Assembly (NCBI RefSeq): GCF_000092425.1
Contig: NC_014221.1
Span: forward strand, 1,927,001 to 1,991,000
DNA: 64,000 nt
Reading direction: 5' to 3'
Source of the DNA: Truepera radiovictrix DSM 17093
Lineage (GTDB): Bacteria; Deinococcota; Deinococci; Deinococcales; Trueperaceae
A program made the translations under genes and the position numbers. Shown here piece by piece: positions 12,309 through 20,762 of this stretch. Position 1 is the first letter of the stretch; each line of letters starts with the position of its first letter. The notes beneath the pieces were generated by a model, which did not search any database, had not been told where the DNA came from, and was given only the letters and a program-made list of their open reading frames with translations.

Positions 12309-13191
12309 TCAGGGCACCTTGCGCAAGCGCACCGCGTGCGCCCACGCGCCCACAGCCGTGTGGGTCGTCTCGGAGAGCTCCGCGAACCACGCCTCGCCGC
12401 CCTCGGGATGGGGTGTCGCCCTTAGGTGCCACGCGCGCCCGCGGTAGCGAAAGCGCGCGGAGAGCGTCGCGGGTTCCGGGCAGACGCAGCTCATGAGCGG
12501 CGCGAACGCCCCCTCTGGTTGACCCTGCGGGTTGAGGTACACCTGCGTCTCGTTGCCCAGAACCTCGCCCTCATAGGGGACGGGGGGGTCGTCGCCGAAG
12601 GTCAGGGTGCCCGTGACGCGGTAGCGGGTTTGGTCGACGAAGTGGGCCTCCGCGACCACGCGGAGCGGTACCACCGCCCCGTTGCCGAGCGCCCTGCGGG
12701 GCTCGAGCGTCTGTGGGTCGCGCAGCGTCACGGTGCGCGAGCGTCGCTCGAACGAGACCGCGTACTGCCCCTCTGGCGCGAAGCCGACGGCCTCATACGC
12801 GTCACCCGTGACGTGCGCGAGCAGCACCCCGGCGCCGAGGTCCCACAGCGCGAGCCCGTCCTCACCGAAGCCGCCCAGGAGCCGGGTGTTGTCGGCGCTC
12901 GCGTGGAGGCTTTCGAGAAAGGCGGCGCGGGGCGGCAGCGGGAGGCGGGCGAGCGTCTCGCCGGTGACGCCGCTCATGAGCTCCAAGCGGTCCTCGTAGT
13001 GCACGCCGATGACCGGCGCGCCGCCCAGCCACATGTGCGCGTCGACCTGGCGGCCGCCCGGGGTCGCGCGGGCGAGGGCGCTGCTGAGGCGGCCGCTCGC
13101 GACCTCCCAGACCCGCACGCGAGCAGCCGTGTAGGCGTCGGTGCCGATCGCCGCGACGAGGCCCCCATCCGGGCTAAAGCTCCTAAGGCGC
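12309..13191 (-). pseudogene. 3' half of beta-propeller (WD40-like) lipoprotein gene split by the integrated element
   Basis: Minus-strand reading just inside the boundary gives RLRSFSPDGGLVAAIGTD, then ARVRVWEVASGRLSS: WD40/YVTN-type blades with no natural start. More blades follow (LALWDLGAGVLLAHVTGD) and then a C-terminal region with CVCPEP to a stop at 12309. The missing N-terminal half, with signal peptide and matching blades (GVRVWEVSSGAVVHDL), is at 20027-20631. Joining the two at the TAGCCCGC repeats gives 1,488 bases, divisible by three and in the same frame, with only a TAG codon at the scar. A GTG at 13118 could start a truncated product, but function is probably lost. Confidence 0.85.
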
Positions 13192-13199
13192 TAGCCCGC
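13192..13199 (+). repeat. Left att-like direct repeat
   Basis: TAGCCCGC, identical and in the same orientation at 20027-20034. It marks the change from beta-propeller coding sequence to element DNA. Confidence 0.6.
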
Positions 13200-13221
13200 A
13201 AGCATGGCCCAAAGACCGCGA

Positions 13222-13245
13222 AAACCCTATGCCTACAGGGTTCTT
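13222..13245 (-). terminator. Possible weak terminator near the left end of the element
   Basis: AACCCT and AGGGTT pair across a short loop. On the minus strand the stem is followed by TTTTC. It could stop transcripts leaving the element leftwards. Between 13200 and 13500 the only other feature is the first double-hairpin repeat. Confidence 0.3.
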
Positions 13246-13329
13246 GCTCAAAACGCCTACCATCAAAAACAGTCAGGCTAGCGGCCAATTCAGCGCCGCA
13301 TAGCGTGTTCAGAGTGTAGCAGAGCACAG

Positions 13330-13376
13330 CTTGTCAGCGAAGCTGACTAGCGCTAGTAGCGCTCTGCGCTACAAGC
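13330..13376 (+). repeat. Double-hairpin repeat, copy 1
   Basis: Outer GCTTG/CAAGC, hairpin GTCAGC-GAA-GCTGAC (13333-13347), linker TAGCGCTAG (13348-13356), hairpin TAGCGC-TCT-GCGCTA (13357-13371). Both stems are perfect. Stem sequences differ from the other copies while the architecture is kept. Confidence 0.85.
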
Positions 13377-13500
13377 ACCAACGCCACAACAGAAGCGTGA
13401 GGCATCATGCCGCCGCATGACACGACTTCTTGGTACTATGGCAGCATGCCACCACTGAGACAGGGAGCGGCAGACACTTGGACCTATCAGGAGTACCGTC

Positions 13501-13935
13501 GTGATTCGAGTACTCGCCATCCTCATTGCTGCGCTGTGTGTCACTCCGCATTTAGCAGTAGCAGAACAGGAATATGAAAACACGTGTGACGGAGCATATG
13601 AGTACGTGCTTGATTGGTTCGAATCTCAGGAAGACACCTTCGCGACCGACGCAACGCCTGAGCCAACGCTTGGCGATGTAATGCGATGGAATGTCGAGTA
13701 CCTCCAAGCGCATGAGCCGCCTAATCTGTTCGAGCCGTACGTAGGCGCGGCGATTGAGTTCTTCACGTTCATCGCCGTAGACACTGCAACACCGCCCCCT
13801 GACGATGTGACGCTTTGGACGGTAGTTGAGAAGCTAGAGAACGAGGCAGAAAAGCTCGTTGTGGAATGTGGCAACAATCATCCGCTCGTTACAGAGTATG
13901 TAAATGCCGTACTTGCCACACCTACGGCTGAGTAG
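13501..13935 (+). CDS. Small secreted protein of unknown function (element cargo)
   Basis: A GTG start at 13501 with AGGAG upstream gives 144 residues. The first 21 residues (MIRVLAILIAALCVTPHLAVA) form a clear signal peptide, so the product should be exported. The mature part is acidic, with aromatic residues and two cysteines (NTCDGAYEYV near 29 and VVECGNN near 124) that could form a disulfide. I recognise no family. Base composition matches the element, not the chromosome. It stands alone at the left end, before the small-protein and replication genes, and could be an immunity, exclusion or host-interaction factor; that is only a guess. Confidence 0.7.
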   Translation: MIRVLAILIAALCVTPHLAVAEQEYENTCDGAYEYVLDWFESQEDTFATDATPEPTLGDVMRWNVEYLQAHEPPNLFEPYVGAAIEFFTFIAVDTATPPPDDVTLWTVVEKLENEAEKLVVECGNNHPLVTEYVNAVLATPTAE

Positions 13936-14066
13936 GATTGAAGAGCCGCGCATCCCGCGCGAACAGGCGACCTTCAAGAAGGCGGGCCGCATATCCCGCA
14001 ATCAGCAGCCCACGCTAGACCTAGGCGAGATGTGAGCACCGCGACCCGACACGAGGCGAAAGCACC

Positions 14067-14273
14067 ATGATCGAAACCGAATCAACGGTCACATGCCCTC
14101 ACTGCGGCCATCAGCACACCGAGCAAATGTCTGAGGAATCGTGCCAGTTCTTCTACAAGTGCAAGAACTGCGGTACGGTGCTCCGACCGAAAGAGGGCGA
14201 TTGCTGCGTGTTTTGCTCGTACGGCACGGTGCCATGCCCACCGATTCAACGAGGTGATGAGCAGTGCTGTTGA
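14067..14273 (+). CDS. GDCCVxC-domain small cysteine protein
   Basis: The 68-residue protein has two CxxC-type pairs (CPHCGH, CKNCGTV) and the signature GDCCVFCSYG-x-VPCPPIQ, which defines the GDCCVxC domain (seleno)protein family. In some relatives one of these cysteines is selenocysteine. The pattern suggests a zinc- or metal-binding or redox role, and relatives are often found beside mercury or heavy-metal resistance genes. Here it sits in a mobile element with no mer genes nearby. AGGCGA precedes the ATG. It is an unusual cargo gene and may have come with an older resistance module. Confidence 0.8.
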   Translation: MIETESTVTCPHCGHQHTEQMSEESCQFFYKCKNCGTVLRPKEGDCCVFCSYGTVPCPPIQRGDEQCC

Positions 14274-14343
14274 GCGGTAATCAGCAGAAGCGATACCAAC
14301 AGCAACGCCTCTGTACGGGCATCGTGACCGCGAAATCATCGTG

Positions 14344-14391
14344 CTTGAAGCCTTTCAGGCTTCTAGCGCTAGCAGCCCTTTGGGCTGCAAG
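14344..14391 (+). repeat. Double-hairpin repeat, copy 2
   Basis: Outer CTTG/CAAG, hairpin GAAGCCT-TTC-AGGCTTC, linker TAGCGCTAG (14364-14372), hairpin CAGCCC-TTT-GGGCTG. It is intergenic, just upstream of the small DNA-binding protein gene. Confidence 0.85.
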
Positions 14392-14413
14392 TTTGGAATG
14401 GAGGTGAAAAACA

Positions 14414-14605
14414 ATGAAGTTGGAGAAGGAACACTACCCGATGCGAGAAGTTAGCAGGCTATTAGGAATCACGAATCACAAGCTGTGGAGACTGCGTAAG
14501 GTGCTGAACTTTGACGTGCATACGCGTGGTGTTGACAGGCGCGAGAAGTGGGTAAGCGCGGAGACTGTCAAGATGCTAGACGAATACCCGCATAAGTTTG
14601 ACTAG
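14414..14605 (+). CDS. Small winged-helix (MerR/excisionase-like) DNA-binding protein
   Basis: The 63-residue product MKLEKEHYPMREVSRLLGIT has the layout of a MerR-type or excisionase helix-turn-helix: a Y-P-x-x-E-V-S-x-L-L-G-I-T helix pair, then KLWRLRKVLN, and a short C-terminal wing ending near KWVSAETVKML. A strong GGAGGTG site precedes the ATG. Small proteins of this kind in integrative elements often act as excisionase or recombination directionality factor, or as a transcription switch. It lies 21 bases before the first ATPase gene and may be co-transcribed with it. Either role is inferred from size and context. Confidence 0.65.
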   Translation: MKLEKEHYPMREVSRLLGITNHKLWRLRKVLNFDVHTRGVDRREKWVSAETVKMLDEYPHKFD

Positions 14606-14626
14606 AACCGAAAGGATAATTATAAC

Positions 14627-15316
14627 ATGACCACGACAACCAAGAACAAGAACACATCTCTCGTGTTCACAAGGGATATTTCACCAAGGCCAGCGAATTG
14701 GCTACTGCAACCCTTGGTGTTGCAAGGCGGATTGCATCTCTGGTATGGCGATACGAGGGGCAGTCACGCTGGCATTGACCTCGCATTCGCGCTCACAAAC
14801 GGGCTGCGCTTCCATGACCTCGACGTTGCAAAGGCGAACGTGGTGTACGTCACCGCGAACGACGTAGCAGATCGCGTAGAGCATTGGAAGAACACCTATG
14901 ACGCGCATGACACACCGTGGATAGTTGATCTACAGATCACGAATGAAGAGCAGATGCAAGAGCTTACTGAATTCGTGAAGGCCAACAACGTTGAGCTTGT
15001 GATGTTCGACCACCTAGCTACACGCAGCAATGACGTGAACCTCAACAGTCCTGCTGATATTGACGCGAAGATCAATCCGCCGCTGTTGAAGTTGATAGAA
15101 GATACCGCTGTGATTCTTCTTCATCAGACGCAACAAGGGGCGCAGACACACAAGCTTAGACCGCTGATGGATGCTGCTGACATGACTGTCGGCGTATCGC
15201 GACGCAGTGTCGACAGGGGTAGCGACATCGTTACGTTGAGCTTTATGAAGAGCTTCAGATCGCAGATGGCGCAAGCGCTTACCTACGGCAACGACACGCT
15301 GTCGAGACGTGCGTAG
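14627..15316 (+). CDS. RepA/AAA_25-like RecA-fold protein with degenerate Walker A
   Basis: The 229-residue protein resembles the larger ATPase at 16049. Both share a glycine loop after a hydrophobic strand, a strand reporting V-V-Y-V-T/A-A after about 30 residues, a Walker-B-like VMFD (Asp128) and an ILLH-Q strand. The P-loop position (41-48) reads GDTRGSHA and lacks the expected Lys-Ser/Thr, so ATP hydrolysis is doubtful. It may be a regulatory or structural partner of the active paralogue in a helicase ring. AGGATAATTATAAC upstream contains an AGGA site. The gene sits between the small DNA-binding protein and a double-hairpin repeat. Confidence 0.6.
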   Translation: MTTTTKNKNTSLVFTRDISPRPANWLLQPLVLQGGLHLWYGDTRGSHAGIDLAFALTNGLRFHDLDVAKANVVYVTANDVADRVEHWKNTYDAHDTPWIVDLQITNEEQMQELTEFVKANNVELVMFDHLATRSNDVNLNSPADIDAKINPPLLKLIEDTAVILLHQTQQGAQTHKLRPLMDAADMTVGVSRRSVDRGSDIVTLSFMKSFRSQMAQALTYGNDTLSRRA

Positions 15317-15365
15317 TCCCTCTTGAAGCGCTGTGCAAGCGTATATGAATGAAGCGTTTATTTGA

Positions 15366-15411
15366 CTTGAAGCCGCAGGCTTCTAGCGCTAGCACAGCAT
15401 CGCTGTGCAAG
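15366..15411 (+). repeat. Double-hairpin repeat, copy 3
   Basis: Outer CTTG/CAAG, hairpin GAAGCC-GCA-GGCTTC, linker TAGCGCTAG (15384-15392), hairpin CACAGC-ATC-GCTGTG. It lies in the 233-base gap between two element genes; nothing else is evident in that gap. Confidence 0.85.
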
Positions 15412-15549
15412 CCTGTGAGAGAGCAGCATGTCTACGGGTGGCATGAGTCCTAATCGAGATTGGCAACGCTCACAGGTGATTCTACGGCCTCTCAGGGCCA
15501 TTTGAAGCCGACTTTTACGAGTTGTGGCACATGAACAGAAAGAGCAGCT

Positions 15550-16047
15550 ATGAAGGAATTAGAGGCAAGGCGATACAGCCTTGGTGAAGCGTTAGCGTTA
15601 CATCTTGAAGAGCAACCCAACTTGCAGAGCGAAGCGCTGCGACTTGAAGCAACCAAGCACATTCCTGCAGTGCAGAGCACTGCTAGCGCTAGCAATGCGA
15701 AGCATTGCAAGGATGAGCTTGAACAGCAAAGCTGTTCTAGCGCAAGCAATCCTTCGGATTGCAAGCAACTGAGTTGGGAAGTCGGCGTCAAGTACGAACC
15801 GAGATTGCTAGGACTTGTGCGACGTATCGAAGCAATCAAGCGAAAGAACTTTGAGCTAAGGGGCAAACGCAAGCTTCGCTATCGGTATGCCCAGGAATGT
15901 TGGTATGGGTATGGTGGTAAGCCGTCGATAAAGGAAGAGTTGTGCGGCATCGTGGGTTGGGATGGCGACACGGAGCATGAAGCGTTGCGTAGCGCTGTGG
16001 CCTACGATATCTGCTACAGCAAGCTCTTTAGAATGCTGAGCCGCTGA
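15550..16047 (+). CDS. Element protein of unknown function containing two in-frame double-hairpin repeats
   Basis: The 165-residue protein belongs to no family I recognise. Residues about 39-72 are encoded by two adjacent double-hairpin repeats and read as related Ser/Ala/Cys-rich peptides (STASASNAKHCK and SCSSASNPSDCK). The flanking parts are more ordinary: an N-terminal RRYSLGEALALHLEEQP helix and a basic, aromatic C-terminal part (RGKRKLRYRYAQECWYGYG). The basic C-terminus suggests nucleic-acid binding, which is inference. The stop codon is one base before the next ATG, so it is probably translated with the ATPase gene. The repeats look inserted, since the frame is preserved and the flanks read normally. 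Confidence 0.6.
   Translation: MKELEARRYSLGEALALHLEEQPNLQSEALRLEATKHIPAVQSTASASNAKHCKDELEQQSCSSASNPSDCKQLSWEVGVKYEPRLLGLVRRIEAIKRKNFELRGKRKLRYRYAQECWYGYGGKPSIKEELCGIVGWDGDTEHEALRSAVAYDICYSKLFRMLSR
15664..15711 (+). repeat. Double-hairpin repeat, copy 4 (inside a gene)
   Basis: Hairpin GCAGTGC-AGA-GCACTGC (15667-15683), linker TAGCGCTAG, hairpin CAATGC-GAA-GCATTG, then CAAG. The outer CCTG/CAAG pairing has one mismatch. It is translated in frame. Confidence 0.85.
15718..15765 (+). repeat. Double-hairpin repeat, copy 5 (inside a gene)
   Basis: Outer GCTTG/CAAGC, hairpin GAACAGC-AAA-GCTGTTC (15721-15737), linker variant TAGCGCAAG, hairpin CAATCC-TTC-GGATTG. It begins six bases after copy 4 and stays in the same reading frame. 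Confidence 0.85.
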
Positions 16048-16048
16048 G

Positions 16049-17143
16049 ATGCCGAACACGAATAGTGAATACAATGACTACATCAAGACGTGGAAGGCAG
16101 GAGAGCGCATGAACGCTAAGGGCACGCAAGACTTCATAGTCGAAGACCTGTTATTCGTAAAAACGCAGGCGATGATCTACGCGCCAACAGGGCACATCAA
16201 GACGTTTACGTCGCGAGACGTGGTGTGTCACGTGGCGACAGGACTCGATTTCAACGGCAAGAAAGTCAAGCAGACGAACGTGCTCTACGTCGCCGCTGAG
16301 GGTGCGGACGAATTTGAGAAGCGCTTGATTGCGTGGGAAGACTACTACGGAATCAGCACGAGGGATCATCTCGAATTTGTGGATGTGCCGTTGCAGTTGC
16401 ACGACGAGGGGCACATGAGGTTTGTGAGGAAGTGGCTCATTGCACATAATGGCGGCTTGGTCGTATTTGACACTGCCGAGAAATGCACGATTGGCACCGA
16501 TGAGAACGCACCAACACAAGTGAATCTACGCGTGAACGCGCCGCTCGAAAGAATCAAGCAGGAGACGGGCGCTACCACGTTGCTTGTGCATCACCAAGGC
16601 ACGGGTAAGTACCCGAGGCCGCGCGGCTGTACCGCGTGGGAGACACCGAACGATACGCTGATGCGCGTGCAGACGACGTTTCTGGACTGGCAGACGCGTA
16701 ATACGCCAATTGAGTCGGTATTGCAGATTGAAAAGCAGCGAGGGATGCCGCCGTTTGGACTGAAGTTCAAGCCAATACGCGTAGACGTGCCGAGATACCA
16801 CGAAGACGCAACGACGCTGATACTCCTACCTCAGGGTATGGCAGACGTGAAGGCGCAGTCTGAACGCAAGCAGAGCAAGCGCAAGCAGATGAGGAAGATT
16901 CCGTATCTCTTCAGGCTTGTGGCGTTGCTTGAAAAGCGAGGCGATTTGACAGCGAAAGAAGTGGCGGACGTACTGCATGATGGCAAGCTCACCACCGCTA
17001 AGCCCGCGCTGAGTAAGGCGAAGGGCAAGACTATTGTGAATGTGGGCGGCAAGTGGGGCGTACGCGCAAGTGACGTGGTGCCGCAGACAGCGCAGCCTGA
17101 AACTACTGACGCTGGCGTTAGAGAGTTGGCAGGCGTGGCCTAA
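16049..17143 (+). CDS. RepA-like AAA_25 ATPase (replicative helicase-type)
   Basis: The 364-residue protein has a variant P-loop APTGHIKT (45-52) retaining the catalytic Lys-Thr, a Walker B strand GGLVVFDTAE (Asp141) and a TTLLVHHQG strand (His181-His182), the pattern of AAA_25/RepA hexameric helicases of plasmids and phages. The C-terminal part has a basic stretch (SERKQSKRKQMRK) and a winged-helix-like segment (DLTAKEVADVLHDG). The 16049 start abuts the upstream stop. An ATG at 16109 has a better AGGAGAG site and would give 344 residues. With the primase downstream and the iterons in between, a role in element replication is likely. Confidence 0.75.
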   Translation: MPNTNSEYNDYIKTWKAGERMNAKGTQDFIVEDLLFVKTQAMIYAPTGHIKTFTSRDVVCHVATGLDFNGKKVKQTNVLYVAAEGADEFEKRLIAWEDYYGISTRDHLEFVDVPLQLHDEGHMRFVRKWLIAHNGGLVVFDTAEKCTIGTDENAPTQVNLRVNAPLERIKQETGATTLLVHHQGTGKYPRPRGCTAWETPNDTLMRVQTTFLDWQTRNTPIESVLQIEKQRGMPPFGLKFKPIRVDVPRYHEDATTLILLPQGMADVKAQSERKQSKRKQMRKIPYLFRLVALLEKRGDLTAKEVADVLHDGKLTTAKPALSKAKGKTIVNVGGKWGVRASDVVPQTAQPETTDAGVRELAGVA

Positions 17144-17146
17144 GCA

Positions 17147-17287
17147 GAGTTGCATGTAAAGTTGCATCGGAGTTGCCATGCAACTCGTAATGCAACTCCC
17201 ATTTTGGTTGATTCTGCGGGCAAAACGGGCCAAAGTTGCAAGTTGCATTCGCCGTATATATATCTAACGATATATATAATGCAACTC
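17147..17287. other. Candidate replication origin: GAGTTGCAT iterons with AT-rich stretch
   Basis: Eight copies of (G/A)AGTTGCAT or close variants occur in both orientations: forward at 17147, 17159, 17170 (partial), 17233 and 17240; reverse at 17178, 17190 and 17279. An alternating TATATATA...TATATATA tract at 17254-17278 lies between the last two copies and would melt easily. Iterons plus an AT-rich unwinding element beside a RepA-like ATPase and a primase gene are the classic layout of a plasmid or phage origin. Function is inferred. Confidence 0.65.
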
Positions 17288-17333
17288 TCGCACTCGTTCG
17301 CGTTGCGTGTTGCTGCTAGTGCCACCGAGATTG

Positions 17334-17359
17334 CTAGTGCAGGGTTTACCCTGTGCTAG
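17334..17359. repeat. Imperfect palindrome CTAG...CTAG
   Basis: CTAGTGCAGGGT, two T bases, then ACCCTGTGCTAG form a 12-bp imperfect stem. It lies just after the iteron region and may terminate transcription from the ATPase gene or bind a regulator. Confidence 0.4.
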
Positions 17360-17451
17360 TAATCGAATGGCTACTAGCAGTTAGGCGAGCGTAGCGTAGC
17401 CTTACTGCGTAGTGCGCAATCTCAATTTTGAGTGTGACTGTACGCAATCAG

Positions 17452-17512
17452 TGAGGGGCGCTAAAGCAGCGCGCCCCCCACCGCCTTGCACATCTTCGAT
17501 GTGCTGCGCTCC
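17452..17512 (+). repeat. Hairpins in the long intergenic gap, including a half double-hairpin repeat
   Basis: GGGGCGC pairs with GCGCCCC (about 17455-17478). Next, CTTG plus a perfect 7-bp hairpin GCACATC-TTC-GATGTGC (17488-17504) and TGCGCTCC resemble the first half of the double-hairpin repeat. No gene is visible from 17360 to 17779. Confidence 0.5.
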
Positions 17513-17701
17513 TACCCCCCTGCCGCTTACTCGCTTCGCTCGTTTGTACAATTTCTTGGTACGTAATCAGCAATCAACACGTAGGCAATCGTAATAGCAT
17601 CATCAGCCCCCGATGATAGGAGTCAGCCATATAGGGGGTTGTTGTTGTCACTACGTTCATCCGAGCACACGTTATATGGGTTGTTGGTTGTGTCAGTAGC
17701 A

Positions 17702-17745
17702 GTGTCTACAGGTGGGGTATGGACCAATCATCACACCCCCTGTAG
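17702..17745. promoter_or_regulatory. Inverted-repeat site before the primase gene
   Basis: GTGTCTACAGGTGG (17702-17715) forms a stem with CACCCCCTGTAG (17734-17745). The same 14 bases occur exactly, inverted, at 18769-18782 beyond the gene. It is probably a protein-binding or regulatory site. Confidence 0.5.
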
Positions 17746-17779
17746 GCACCACATCTATTTATATGGAGGTTTGTAAGAC

Positions 17780-18601
17780 ATGTATGAGTCTATTCCGCAT
17801 GAGCTACGTACGCTGAATCAGTGGGTAGCATGGCAAAGGCAGATTGATGGTACGAGGGTGAAGAAGGTACCGCTTGATCCAAAGATGATGAGAAGCGCAA
17901 GCGTGGTTGACCCTGATACGTGGTCGTCATTCGATGCCGCGTGCCGTCGTGAGCATAGCGATGGTATTGGATTTGTGCTGACGGCTGATGATGGCATCGT
18001 AGGAATTGACCTTGATAACTGCATTGTCGATGGCTTTGTCACTACAGCAGCGTTCAAGATCGTTGACCACTTCAATAGCTATACCGAAGTGTCGCCGTCT
18101 GGTACGGGCTTGCATATCTTCATCAGGGCGAACCTCAATAGAGCTTGGAAGCGCACCAACGGTAGTAGGTCCGTTGAAATCTATGGTGATCGCCGCTATT
18201 TGACGATGACAGGCGACCGAGCGCCGCTCTCCCGATTGGCGATTCACGACAGGCAAGACGAGTTGAACGCGTTTCTTGCGAAGTATGACCGCGCGTCGTC
18301 ACCGCCACGCACCATCGCCAGGACGGCACCACAACGCGATGATGAAGACGTGTTGCAGCGTGCGGCCAACGCGAGGAATGGCGAGAGGTTCCGTAAGCTG
18401 TGGAGTGGTGACACGTCAGCGTACGGCCACGACCACAACCGCGCTGACCTTGCGCTGTGCAACATGCTTTGGTATTGGAGCGGTGACGAGGCGCAAGTCG
18501 ATAGGCTGTTTCGCCGCTCAGGGTTGATGCGTGATAAGTGGGATTCGGCAAGAGGGGCGTCTACGTACGGCGAAAATCTCATACTTAAGGCGATGAGCTA
18601 G
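17780..18601 (+). CDS. NrS-1-polymerase-like primase (AEP fold) without helicase domain
   Basis: The 273-residue protein starts with QWVAWQRQ...KKVPLDP, typical of bifunctional primase-polymerase N-termini. The catalytic strand GIDLDN has Asp77-x-Asp79. SPSGTGLHI supplies His112, and VEIYGDRRYLTMTGD gives the third conserved acidic strand. Residues about 180-273 (NGERFRKLWSGD; HNRADLALCNMLWYW; KWDSARGASTYGE) match the helical domain that follows the primase in NrS-1-type phage polymerases. The C-terminal helicase domain of full-length relatives is absent, so the separate ATPase at 16049 may supply it. GGAGG lies 12 bases before the ATG. Likely the element's replication primase. Confidence 0.8.
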   Translation: MYESIPHELRTLNQWVAWQRQIDGTRVKKVPLDPKMMRSASVVDPDTWSSFDAACRREHSDGIGFVLTADDGIVGIDLDNCIVDGFVTTAAFKIVDHFNSYTEVSPSGTGLHIFIRANLNRAWKRTNGSRSVEIYGDRRYLTMTGDRAPLSRLAIHDRQDELNAFLAKYDRASSPPRTIARTAPQRDDEDVLQRAANARNGERFRKLWSGDTSAYGHDHNRADLALCNMLWYWSGDEAQVDRLFRRSGLMRDKWDSARGASTYGENLILKAMS

Positions 18602-18609
18602 ACAGCATA

Positions 18610-18637
18610 TGCTAGCAAATCCTGAGAATTTCTAGCA
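18610..18637. repeat. Inverted repeat after the primase gene
   Basis: TGCTAG-AAAT-type arms flank CCTGAG. The hairpin begins eight bases after the primase stop and could end transcription, though no T run follows. From 18638 to 18962 there is no gene; the only other signal is the 14-bp inverted copy at 18769. Confidence 0.4.
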
Positions 18638-18768
18638 TCGGCGCTGATAGGCGGAATTGCAGCGCGATTATTGAGACGTGGTGCGTTGTGATTGCAGGTG
18701 CCGCGTTGGAGCGAAATCGACGGGCCGTACCCCTACTCCGCAGCGTGAGGAAACGCGGCCCAACCTCA

Positions 18769-18782
18769 CCACCTGTAGACAC
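18769..18782 (-). repeat. Inverted copy of the 14-bp pre-primase site
   Basis: CCACCTGTAGACAC is the exact reverse complement of 17702-17715. The two copies bracket the primase gene. Confidence 0.6.
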
Positions 18783-18962
18783 GATTCATTGCGGTTTGCG
18801 TTTTTACGATTATACGTAAAACCTGACAAAACCTCACTATTGACCATGCTACAAGTAAGGCCGAGAGTCAGTAAGCAGCGTGTGGAACACAGCTAACCGA
18901 CACTCAACCTTGCAAGTGTCAGAACCAATTTCACGGTTTGTGTGTTCAGCTTGTGAACTTGT

Positions 18963-19841
18963 CTACCGTGCGTTTCGCATCAGATTTGCGAGCGGACTCG
19001 CGACCGCGTGCGCGTTCTGAAGGTCCGTCGTATTGAGCGCGACGTACCGCATGGTCATGTTCAGGCTCGTATGCCCCAACATGCGTTGCAGTGTGAGCGG
19101 GTCCATACCATTTCGAAGCATCGTGATTGCCGCGCTGTGCCTGAGCCGATGTGGGTAGCAGTCGTCAACAGCAGCCCGATTGCCTATGCGCTCAATGAGC
19201 TTATGCAATGACCGAGGCGTGAAGCGCTCTGAGCGTTCGGTATGGAACACGTACGGCCCTTCCGAGGCGCGACCCTTCAATAGCCACTTGGAAACCAGCT
19301 TGCCTGTTTGTGGCGAGTGGGGCACAACGCGCTCTTTGTTGCCCTTGCCCATCACCTTGATAAGGCACTGATCTAGCAAGCAGTCGGAGAGTTTGAGCGT
19401 ACACAGTTCGCTTGCTCGAATCGCGGTATCAAGTAGTAGCGCGACGATGGCCGCGTCCCTGATGCTCGACTGTGACGCCTTCAAGAGCCGACGTAGCTCA
19501 GCATCGGTAAAGGGTTGCCGTTGTGTCTGTGGCGGCTTTGGCTTGCGGACGCGCTCAGCGACGTTCTTCTCGGTGAACTCTTCCTCGTGTAGCCAACGCG
19601 TGAAGGCAAGCAGCGATTGCACTTTGTTGGTGACAGTCCATCCTGAAAGGCCGCTCGATTGCAGATACACCACGTACTCACGTATGAGCGTGGGATTCCA
19701 TGTCTCAGGCTCAGCAGAGTGCGAACACGCCTCTAGCCATCGTGTGAAGCTCTTCAGGCTTGTTTCGTGCCACTCTAGCGACCGCGTAGTGAGGCCGTCG
19801 GCTTGTCGGGAAAGCAGGAACGCACGCACGTAACGATTCAT
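18963..19841 (-). CDS. Tyrosine recombinase (integrase of the element)
   Basis: The 292-residue XerC/D-like recombinase has a SAM-like N-terminal domain (about 1-95) and a complete catalytic set: Arg142 in DTAIRASEL, Lys169 in GKGNKERVV, His231 and Arg234 in PHRLRHSAA, His257 in LGHTSLNMT and Tyr266 in MRYVAL. AGGTGAG precedes the ATG. It is encoded at the right end of the element, pointing inward, with the tRNA-like att fragment just upstream of its start: the usual arrangement for an integrase beside its own attP. It should catalyse integration and excision between the TAGCCCGC repeats. Confidence 0.92.
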   Translation of the reverse strand: MNRYVRAFLLSRQADGLTTRSLEWHETSLKSFTRWLEACSHSAEPETWNPTLIREYVVYLQSSGLSGWTVTNKVQSLLAFTRWLHEEEFTEKNVAERVRKPKPPQTQRQPFTDAELRRLLKASQSSIRDAAIVALLLDTAIRASELCTLKLSDCLLDQCLIKVMGKGNKERVVPHSPQTGKLVSKWLLKGRASEGPYVFHTERSERFTPRSLHKLIERIGNRAAVDDCYPHRLRHSAAITMLRNGMDPLTLQRMLGHTSLNMTMRYVALNTTDLQNAHAVASPLANLMRNAR

Positions 19842-19967
19842 AACTCACCTACCGTCAGTGACGACAGCAGGCGTTCTGAGTCATGCTGAAGGCTTGTGCC
19901 CAGTTCTTGTGAGCACTGACAATCCGCCGCGCCTCAGCACGGCAAAAAGCCTATTGTTACGCGGTAT

Positions 19968-20014
19968 CGGTGCCGAATGCGGGACTCGAACCCACACACC
20001 CTTGCGGGCACCAG
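19968..20014 (-). other. tRNA-Leu-like 3' fragment (variable arm, T arm and acceptor end)
   Basis: On the minus strand CCC-GCAA-GGG forms a type II variable arm. GTGGG-TTCGAGT-CCCGC is a complete T arm, followed by ATTCGGC, discriminator A and CC. The acceptor partner, D arm and anticodon loop are missing, so this is not a functional tRNA. It is most like the 3' part of a tRNA-Leu and is probably attP sequence from an element whose primary target is such a gene. Confidence 0.65.
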
Positions 20015-20026
20015 CTCACCGCGCCG

Positions 20027-20034
20027 TAGCCCGC
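20027..20034 (+). repeat. Right att-like direct repeat
   Basis: TAGCCCGC, same orientation as 13192-13199. It lies within the reading frame of the interrupted beta-propeller gene. Confidence 0.6.
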
Positions 20035-20631
20035 CTCGAGGGCGTGGCGGGGGCCGCGCAGGACGCCTAGGCGCGCGCCGGTCGCGACGTCAAAGAGGCT
20101 CACCTCGCTCAGGCTCTCGTCGGGGTGCTTGTAGCGCGGCCAAGCGCTCAAGACCGCGAGCACCGTCTCGTCGGGCGAGAGCGCAAGGCTCCGCACGCGG
20201 CACGTGGGGCAAGCCGGGGTGTTGGGCGGCAGGTCGTGCACCACCGCGCCGCTTGAGACCTCCCAGACGCGCACCCCCCCGGGACCGTCGTCATGGGGGT
20301 CGGGGATCACGGCCGCGACGCGGTCGCCGGCTCGCGTCAAGGTCACCGCGTCCACCCGGACACCGGCCTCGAGCGTGCCCAGAGGGCGCGCTGAAACCGT
20401 ATCCCAAAACTGCACGGCGTGAAAGAAGTCGCCGTTGCCCATCGCGAGGAGCGAGGCGTCGGCGCTCAAGGACACCTCCGGCGAGGCGACGCGCAGGTCG
20501 AGCTCGGTCTCGTACGCGCCGCGGAAGATGCGGGGGTCCGAGCCGAACTCGAGGGCGGCCGGCGGCGGGGCGCGCAGGCACCCCGAAAGGGCTCCTAACA
20601 GGAGCAGACCCGAGTAGAGCGTGCGCCGCAT
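20027..20631 (-). pseudogene. 5' half of the split beta-propeller lipoprotein gene
   Basis: The ATG at 20631 follows GGGAGG. A lipoprotein signal (GALSGC) opens the protein, followed by WD40-like blades (VQFWDTVSARPLGTLEAG; GVRVWEVSSGAVVHDL; RVRSLALSPDETVLAVLSA; VSLFDVATGARLGVLRG). The frame runs on through the element's tRNA-like fragment to a stop at 19957, adding a short foreign tail. The missing C-terminal half is at 12309-13191. A TACACT box at 20679-20684 probably drives it. A truncated lipoprotein of about 224 residues could still be made. Confidence 0.85.
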
Positions 20632-20678
20632 GCGGCCTCCCGATCTCCTGCAGCGCCGCTGCAGGGGGCAGTTGCTAG

Positions 20679-20684
20679 AGTGTA
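20679..20684 (-). promoter_or_regulatory. -10 box (TG-extended TACACT) of the split lipoprotein gene
   Basis: On the minus strand CTGCTACACTC places TACACT about 47 bases upstream of the ATG at 20631. No clear -35 is seen. Confidence 0.4.
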
Positions 20685-20734
20685 GCAGAGCGCGCGTGCG
20701 CACGAGCGACGCTGCGCGCTCCGCGCATAAACAT

Positions 20735-20762
20735 AAAAAGACCCCCACGCCGAGCGTGGGGG
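20735..20762 (-). terminator. Rho-independent terminator of glgP
   Basis: A perfect 9-bp stem CCCCCACGC/GCGTGGGGG with TCG loop is followed on the minus strand by TCTTTTT. It lies 20 bases after the glgP stop. Confidence 0.9.

Follow-up and report, generated by a model that had tools for sequence, protein, structure and literature searches.

A local family of double-hairpin repeats in an integrated plasmid- or phage-like element of Truepera radiovictrix

Results

Double-hairpin repeats at the locus

We analyzed a stretch of 64,000 nucleotides (hereafter, the window) from the genome of Truepera radiovictrix DSM 17093, which is a single contig of 3,260,398 bases. It contains an integrated plasmid- or phage-like element carrying a family of short repeats, each composed of two adjacent hairpins (Table 1). 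The assignment to an integrated element is based on the low GC content, on the presence of RepA-like ATPases, a primase, and an Xer-like recombinase, and on the splitting of a WD40-type lipoprotein gene of the minus strand, the C-terminal part of which lies to the left of the element (12309-13185) and the N-terminal part to its right (20000-20748).

Five full copies of the repeat, one half copy, and one decayed half copy are found within 4.2 kb of this one low-GC element. The full copies have 46 to 48 nt and follow the general plan CTT, a hairpin of 6 to 7 bp with a 3-nt loop, TAGCGCTA, a hairpin of 7 bp with a 3-nt loop, and AAG. All loops have 3 nt, and stems have 6 bp in hairpin 1 of copies 1 and 3 and otherwise 7 bp, a count that takes in the G-C pair given to CTTG/CTAG in the first-pass annotation of this DNA. 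That annotation had described five copies with ten perfect stems, which our reading of the sequence bore out, and a half copy, which is real and ends at 17510 (CTTG, a 7-bp hairpin, and TGCGCT). The decayed half copy, a weak covariance-model match that we then read in the sequence, was missing from it. The CTTG start and the linker TAGCGCTA that it had attributed to all five copies hold for most of them, copy 4 starting with CCTG and copy 5 having TAGCGCAA as its linker.

Table 1 Features of the integrated element and of the double-hairpin repeats (positions in the window)
Feature	Position	Strand	Structure or description
Integrated mobile element	13185-20000 (approximate ends, about 6.8 kb)		GC 51-58%, about 70% outside
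Double-hairpin copy 1	13330-13375		CTT-GTCAGC(gaa)GCTGAC-TAGCGCTA-GTAGCGC(tct)GCGCTAC-AAG; intergenic, 46 nt
Double-hairpin copy 2	14344-14391		CTT-GAAGCCT(ttc)AGGCTTC-TAGCGCTA-GCAGCCC(ttt)GGGCTGC-AAG; between GDCCVxC gene and 63-aa ORF
RepA-like AAA_25 ATPase	14627-15316	+	First and shorter paralogue
Double-hairpin copy 3	15366-15411		CTT-GAAGCC(gca)GGCTTC-TAGCGCTA-GCACAGC(atc)GCTGTGC-AAG; 3' of first AAA_25 gene, intergenic, 46 nt
ORF of 165 aa	15550-16047	+	Copies 4 and 5 in frame (102 nt including 6-nt spacer); relatives not found
Decayed half copy	15621-15640		CTT-GCAGAGC(gaa)GCGCTGC; one A-G mismatch, second hairpin absent
Double-hairpin copy 4	15664-15711		Starts CCTG; GCAGTGC(aga)GCACTGC-TAGCGCTA-GCAATGC(gaa)GCATTGC-AAG; 48 nt, in frame in ORF 15550-16047
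Double-hairpin copy 5	15718-15765		GAACAGC(aaa)GCTGTTC / GCAATCC(ttc)GGATTGC, linker TAGCGCAA; 48 nt, in frame in ORF 15550-16047, 6 nt past copy 4
RepA-like AAA_25 helicase	16049-17143	+	
Half copy	17485-17510		CTT-GCACATC(ttc)GATGTGC-TGCGCT; non-coding stretch before primase gene
Primase-polymerase, NrS-1-like	17780-18601	+	Nearest plasmid relatives haloarchaeal, about 42% identity
Xer-like tyrosine recombinase (integrase)	18963-19841	-	Best match XerC/XerA type

Each full copy can be laid out as CTTG-hairpin-CTAG, CG, CTAG-hairpin-CAAG, and the first hairpin is the second-hairpin module (CTAG-G...C-AAG) in inverted orientation. Stem differences amount to 2.85 within a hairpin slot and to 2.87 between slots, and the pattern CTAG-N15-CAAG has six matches in the window, all of them repeat halves, where 1.1 would be expected. 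Since the slot distances are equal and all six matches are repeat halves, two units of a single 23-nt hairpin module are joined tail to tail in opposite orientation to form the repeat, and its two hairpins are interchangeable. The module consists of CTAG, a G-C-closed stem (G plus 5 to 6 bp) with a 3-nt loop, and AAG. The unpaired CTT and AAG, the CTAG/CAAG tags, and the linker are near-invariant across copies while the stems vary.

Pairing is kept while stem sequences change

The repeat family is real, statistically solid, and very local. None of 300 dinucleotide shuffles of the low-GC island yielded any double hairpin, against the five found (a sixth double-hairpin pairing in the island is made by neighboring copies), and stems of at least 7 bp with a 3-nt loop number 10 in the island versus a mean of 0.45 in dinucleotide shuffles. 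In the alignment of the repeats, 10 of the 17 pairs change on both sides and none shows a one-sided change. The alignment contains 20 compensated cells, a level reached in 0 of 500 column shuffles, and every covariation measure lies above its shuffled controls. Of the cells, 98.8% are paired, versus 23 to 44% once the partners are shifted by one to three columns, a shift under which the covariation measures collapse as well. This covariation confirms the initial observation that pairing is maintained under changing stem sequences. It had also been proposed that the outer CTTG and CAAG pair to form a three-way junction, an arrangement that appears in no predicted minimum-energy fold of any copy, whether RNA or DNA.

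DNA or RNA structures

In RNA, about one G-U in ten pairs is ordinary. All 75 stem pairs of eleven hairpins are Watson-Crick and none is G-T, which has a P value of about 4e-4 if 10% are expected. GTAG REPs, a group of bacterial palindromic repeats, often have G-T pairs, and REPs thought to act as RNA show them (PMC3733652). Folding as DNA yields precisely the two hairpins for each of the five copies; when folded as RNA, four of the five give two hairpins, the first being extended by a CT/AG pair, and copy 4 takes another fold. Loops occur in reverse-complement forms (GAA and TTC three times each, plus AAA/TTT and AGA/TCT), and 7 of the 12 hairpins have a GNA loop in one of their two strands, without strand preference (P of about 2e-4 if independent). 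GNA loops are known to form exceptionally stable DNA mini-hairpins (PMC4686876).

A terminator-like site, i.e., a hairpin followed by a T run, was found at none of the copies, and a search of Rfam returned nothing above the curated threshold, only two sub-threshold chance matches; intrinsic terminators and Rfam families were thus rejected as identities of the repeat. Hairpins acting as RNA in transcripts from the element, with a part in mRNA processing, stability, or translation control, might still have been envisaged, as the genes from 13501 to 18601 are all on one strand, so that each copy is probably transcribed, and as the hairpins are stable as RNA in folding. We consider this very unlikely: the lack of G-T among the 75 pairs, the loops without strand preference, the different RNA fold preferred by copy 4, and the lack of terminator-like tails point to DNA rather than RNA structures, and no Rfam family fits.

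Copies inside an open reading frame and other features of the element

Copies 4 and 5 lie in a 165-aa open reading frame (ORF) that ends one base short of the start of the RepA-like helicase gene and whose structure prediction has an uninformative pLDDT of 42. Their length of 48 nt is a multiple of three, whereas copies 1 and 3, with 46 nt, are frame-breaking and intergenic, and a repeat acting at the protein level was rejected as the cause on the latter grounds. RPEs, the Rickettsia palindromic elements, are tolerated as in-frame insertions in ORFs (PMC2229807). By analogy, copies 4 and 5 fit with tolerated insertions of this type.

Between copies 1 and 2, the element carries a GDCCVxC-domain (seleno)protein-like gene (14067-14273), of a kind common on proteobacterial plasmids. 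Upstream of the primase gene, the repeats AGTTGCAT / ATGCAACT occur several times and in either orientation at positions 17147 to 17288, adjoining a TATATATATC...GATATATATA dyad; judging from this arrangement, the region has the appearance of an origin of the iteron type or of an operator. The right end of the element (about 19973-20015) contains a stretch similar to the 3' part of a tRNA (GGTTCGAGTCCCGCATTCGGCACC, minus strand). ARAGORN finds no whole tRNA there, and the stretch may be what is left of a former attachment site. The integrase scores 56 bits against the integron integrase model TIGR02249, the cut-off of which is 265. Among IMG/VR proteins, we found no close relatives of three genes of the element.

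Distribution of the repeat

Covariance models of the repeat (R1 and R2) were run on 111 Deinococcota, 400 Chloroflexota, 398 Pseudomonadota, and 396 Actinomycetota genomes. All five copies were recovered, and nothing credible was obtained elsewhere in the T. radiovictrix genome or in the 110 other Deinococcota; the matches in the about 1,200 genomes of the three other phyla were at chance level. The same holds for 11 plasmids or phages that have the nearest relatives of the primase, RepA, or integrase, none of which carries a copy. In IMG/VR, the exact core with gaps of 12 to 17 matched 14 stretches, none of which has the stems, and searches with core variants or with variants of hairpin 2 gave no stems either. 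A scan of GTDB contigs gave five matches, all with 13/13 gaps and none with a stem pair, a weak negative as probably the shortest gap alone was covered. The best of these five matches, in a Chloroflexi metagenome-assembled genome, was rejected, as its palindrome adjoins a TetR-like gene and is probably the operator of that gene, and the second stem of the family is absent.

The family is known from one element and is narrow within the collections searched. The first-pass annotation would have taken the lack of further copies as a sign of chance. The searches indeed found none, but chance is excluded by ten perfect stems at a single locus, so that absence elsewhere means only that the family is narrow.

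Discussion

Origin and maintenance of the repeats

We propose, at slightly better than an even chance, that the repeats form a small family of short DNA palindromes with a narrow distribution, similar to REP dimers and RPEs, which resides in the integrated element and was multiplied there by a DNA-level process. The family looks previously undescribed, its general kind being already known. Multiplication would have taken place on an extruded single strand, either through a structure-recognizing nuclease or transposase for which the hairpin and the constant CTAG/CAAG ends are the signal, or through replication errors that copy the module. The copies would have inserted into spaces between genes and also, in frame, into one ORF. 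Template switching would then copy changes from arm to arm and sometimes invert the loop, so that the arms stay perfect; selection for a foldable strand may or may not add to this.

Compensatory change is usually read as selection, and selection on the folded DNA or RNA was what the first-pass annotation had suggested. The RNA level is disfavored, and selection is not the sole explanation, since template switching in replication homogenizes hairpin arms and inverts loops or spacers without it (PMC8794818, PMC8604942). The lack of intermediates and the inverted loops fit template switching, which leaves the near-invariant tags and linker unexplained; these suggest that something reads them, and both processes may be at work. 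We infer mobility of the repeat from the dispersed copies without shared flanks.

Several observations weigh against the proposed repeat family and its multiplication. There is no sign of movement in the form of an empty site, a target-site duplication, or a second locus, and no enzyme was found to be tied to the repeat, the resident Y1 transposases having unrelated terminal hairpins. No relatives of the 165-aa ORF were found, and the putative insertion into a gene is read from frame and length. Five copies are too few to tell selection from mutational bias, the loop-inversion reading is drawn from few loops, and the enrichment in GNA loops fits selection for stable hairpins equally well. A bolder version of the proposal, which we regard as improbable, would make the 46- to 48-nt repeat a new class of mobile single-strand DNA element in which the CTAG/CAAG tags and the hairpin shape are recognized, the stem is free to vary, and some enzyme moves the unit, with in-frame insertion into genes of the carrier element.

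Alternatively, the repeats might be functional cis-acting sites, i.e., folded single-stranded hairpins read by the replication or recombination proteins of the element, for instance in initiation by primase/RepA or in attC-like exchange of modules by the Xer-like integrase. Every copy lies within a replication/integration element, the conservation of unpaired CTAG/CAAG and linker while stems vary is the pattern of a protein reading tags plus structure, and copies 1, 2, and 3 flank gene modules at intervals of about 1 kb. However, the 6-nt distance between copies 4 and 5 inside an ORF would be unusual if they marked the borders of modules, the score of the integrase is far under the integron-integrase cut-off, the plasmids and phage with the nearest replication or integration proteins are devoid of copies, and the five copies lie away from the candidate origin region. 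We therefore hold such sites to be unlikely, though worth keeping in mind. Somewhat more doubtful is a purely mutational account, in which palindromes are born and kept perfect by template switching and spread by local duplication, without recognition or function. The absence of G-T intermediates, the loops in reverse-complement pairs, and the documented homogenization of arms and inversion of spacers (PMC8794818, PMC8604942) speak for it, but arm-to-arm switching does not explain the near-unchanged unpaired CTT, TAGCGCTA, and AAG, arms of 7 bp are short for efficient switching, and the dispersed copies have no common flanking homology.

Whatever their origin, the repeats provide a compact natural case in which perfect pairing is kept under sequence drift without a G-T intermediate. 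They allow one to ask whether selection or template switching is responsible, which bears on covariation as proof of structure.

Comparison with known systems

The likeness to palindromic repeat families and double-hairpin elements noted at the outset is supported. REPs and their dimers, the BIMEs, have a hairpin of 6 to 9 bp with a loop of 2 to 3 nt, an unpaired conserved tetranucleotide, and tail-to-tail dimers with short spacers, and some are intragenic (PMC3733652). The repeat described here agrees with them in its 23-nt unit (20 to 40 bp in REPs), 6- to 7-bp stem, 3-nt loop, and tail-to-tail dimers, as well as in its stem variants with compensatory changes and its occasional intragenic copies. 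It differs in having CTAG inside and CAAG outside, whereas the REP superfamilies are tagged GTAG or CGTC, in being devoid of the G-T pairs often present in GTAG REPs, and in its distribution, as REPs are high-copy genome-wide and the covariance-model search of the T. radiovictrix genome found island copies only. An associated RAYT flanked by the repeat was not found among the 11 Y1_Tnp genes of the genome. These genes and the shared build would be in line with repeats of the known REP/BIME type that a resident Y1 transposase (IS200/IS605 or RAYT-like) mobilizes in trans, but the tag, the confinement of the five dimers to one locus, and the unrelated hairpins at the ends of resident Y1 elements, none of which is flanked by the repeat, make this extremely unlikely.

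Elsewhere in the genome, outside the window, one IS200-type element is present in seven near-identical copies and another in three, with their own fixed end hairpins. The flanks of the seven-copy, three-copy, and single Y1 elements carry hairpins other than the repeat. IS200/IS605 elements and their short derivatives are similar to the repeat in having two subterminal hairpins and tetranucleotide ends, and in that no target duplication is seen. The resident ends have the hairpins ACCGCCTTTAGGCGGT and CCGACTTTAGTCGG with fixed stems, whereas the stems of the repeat vary. A miniature element derived from IS200/IS605 was rejected because the terminal hairpins are not common with the resident elements.

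Integron attC sites are likewise folded single strands with conserved structure and variable sequence, in elements with a tyrosine recombinase. In an attC site, a single long and imperfect hairpin bears R and L boxes, whereas two small hairpins are present here and the integrase is Xer-like, not an integron integrase. Identity with attC was rejected on the TIGR02249 score of the partner integrase.

RPEs, as reviewed in PMC2229807 from Ogata et al. (2000), are also palindromic and occur between genes and in frame inside ORFs. According to that review, they have 105 to 146 bp and long stem-loops and are spread genome-wide, whereas the repeat has 46 to 48 bp and two small hairpins at one locus, and its insertion into a gene is only putative. 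The double-hairpin elements of fungal mitochondria (Paquin, Laforest, and Lang 2000, as cited in PMC2800124) likewise have two adjacent hairpins and are small and apparently mobile, but organellar. In related hairpin elements of sponge mitochondrial DNA, the stems are constant in sequence and the loops vary (PMC2800124), the reverse of what the repeat shows. Differing from REPs in tag, copy number, and transposase, the repeat resembles REP dimers in its build and RPEs in its placement and, if mobile, would add to this kind of element a type of tag and an example restricted to a mobile element.

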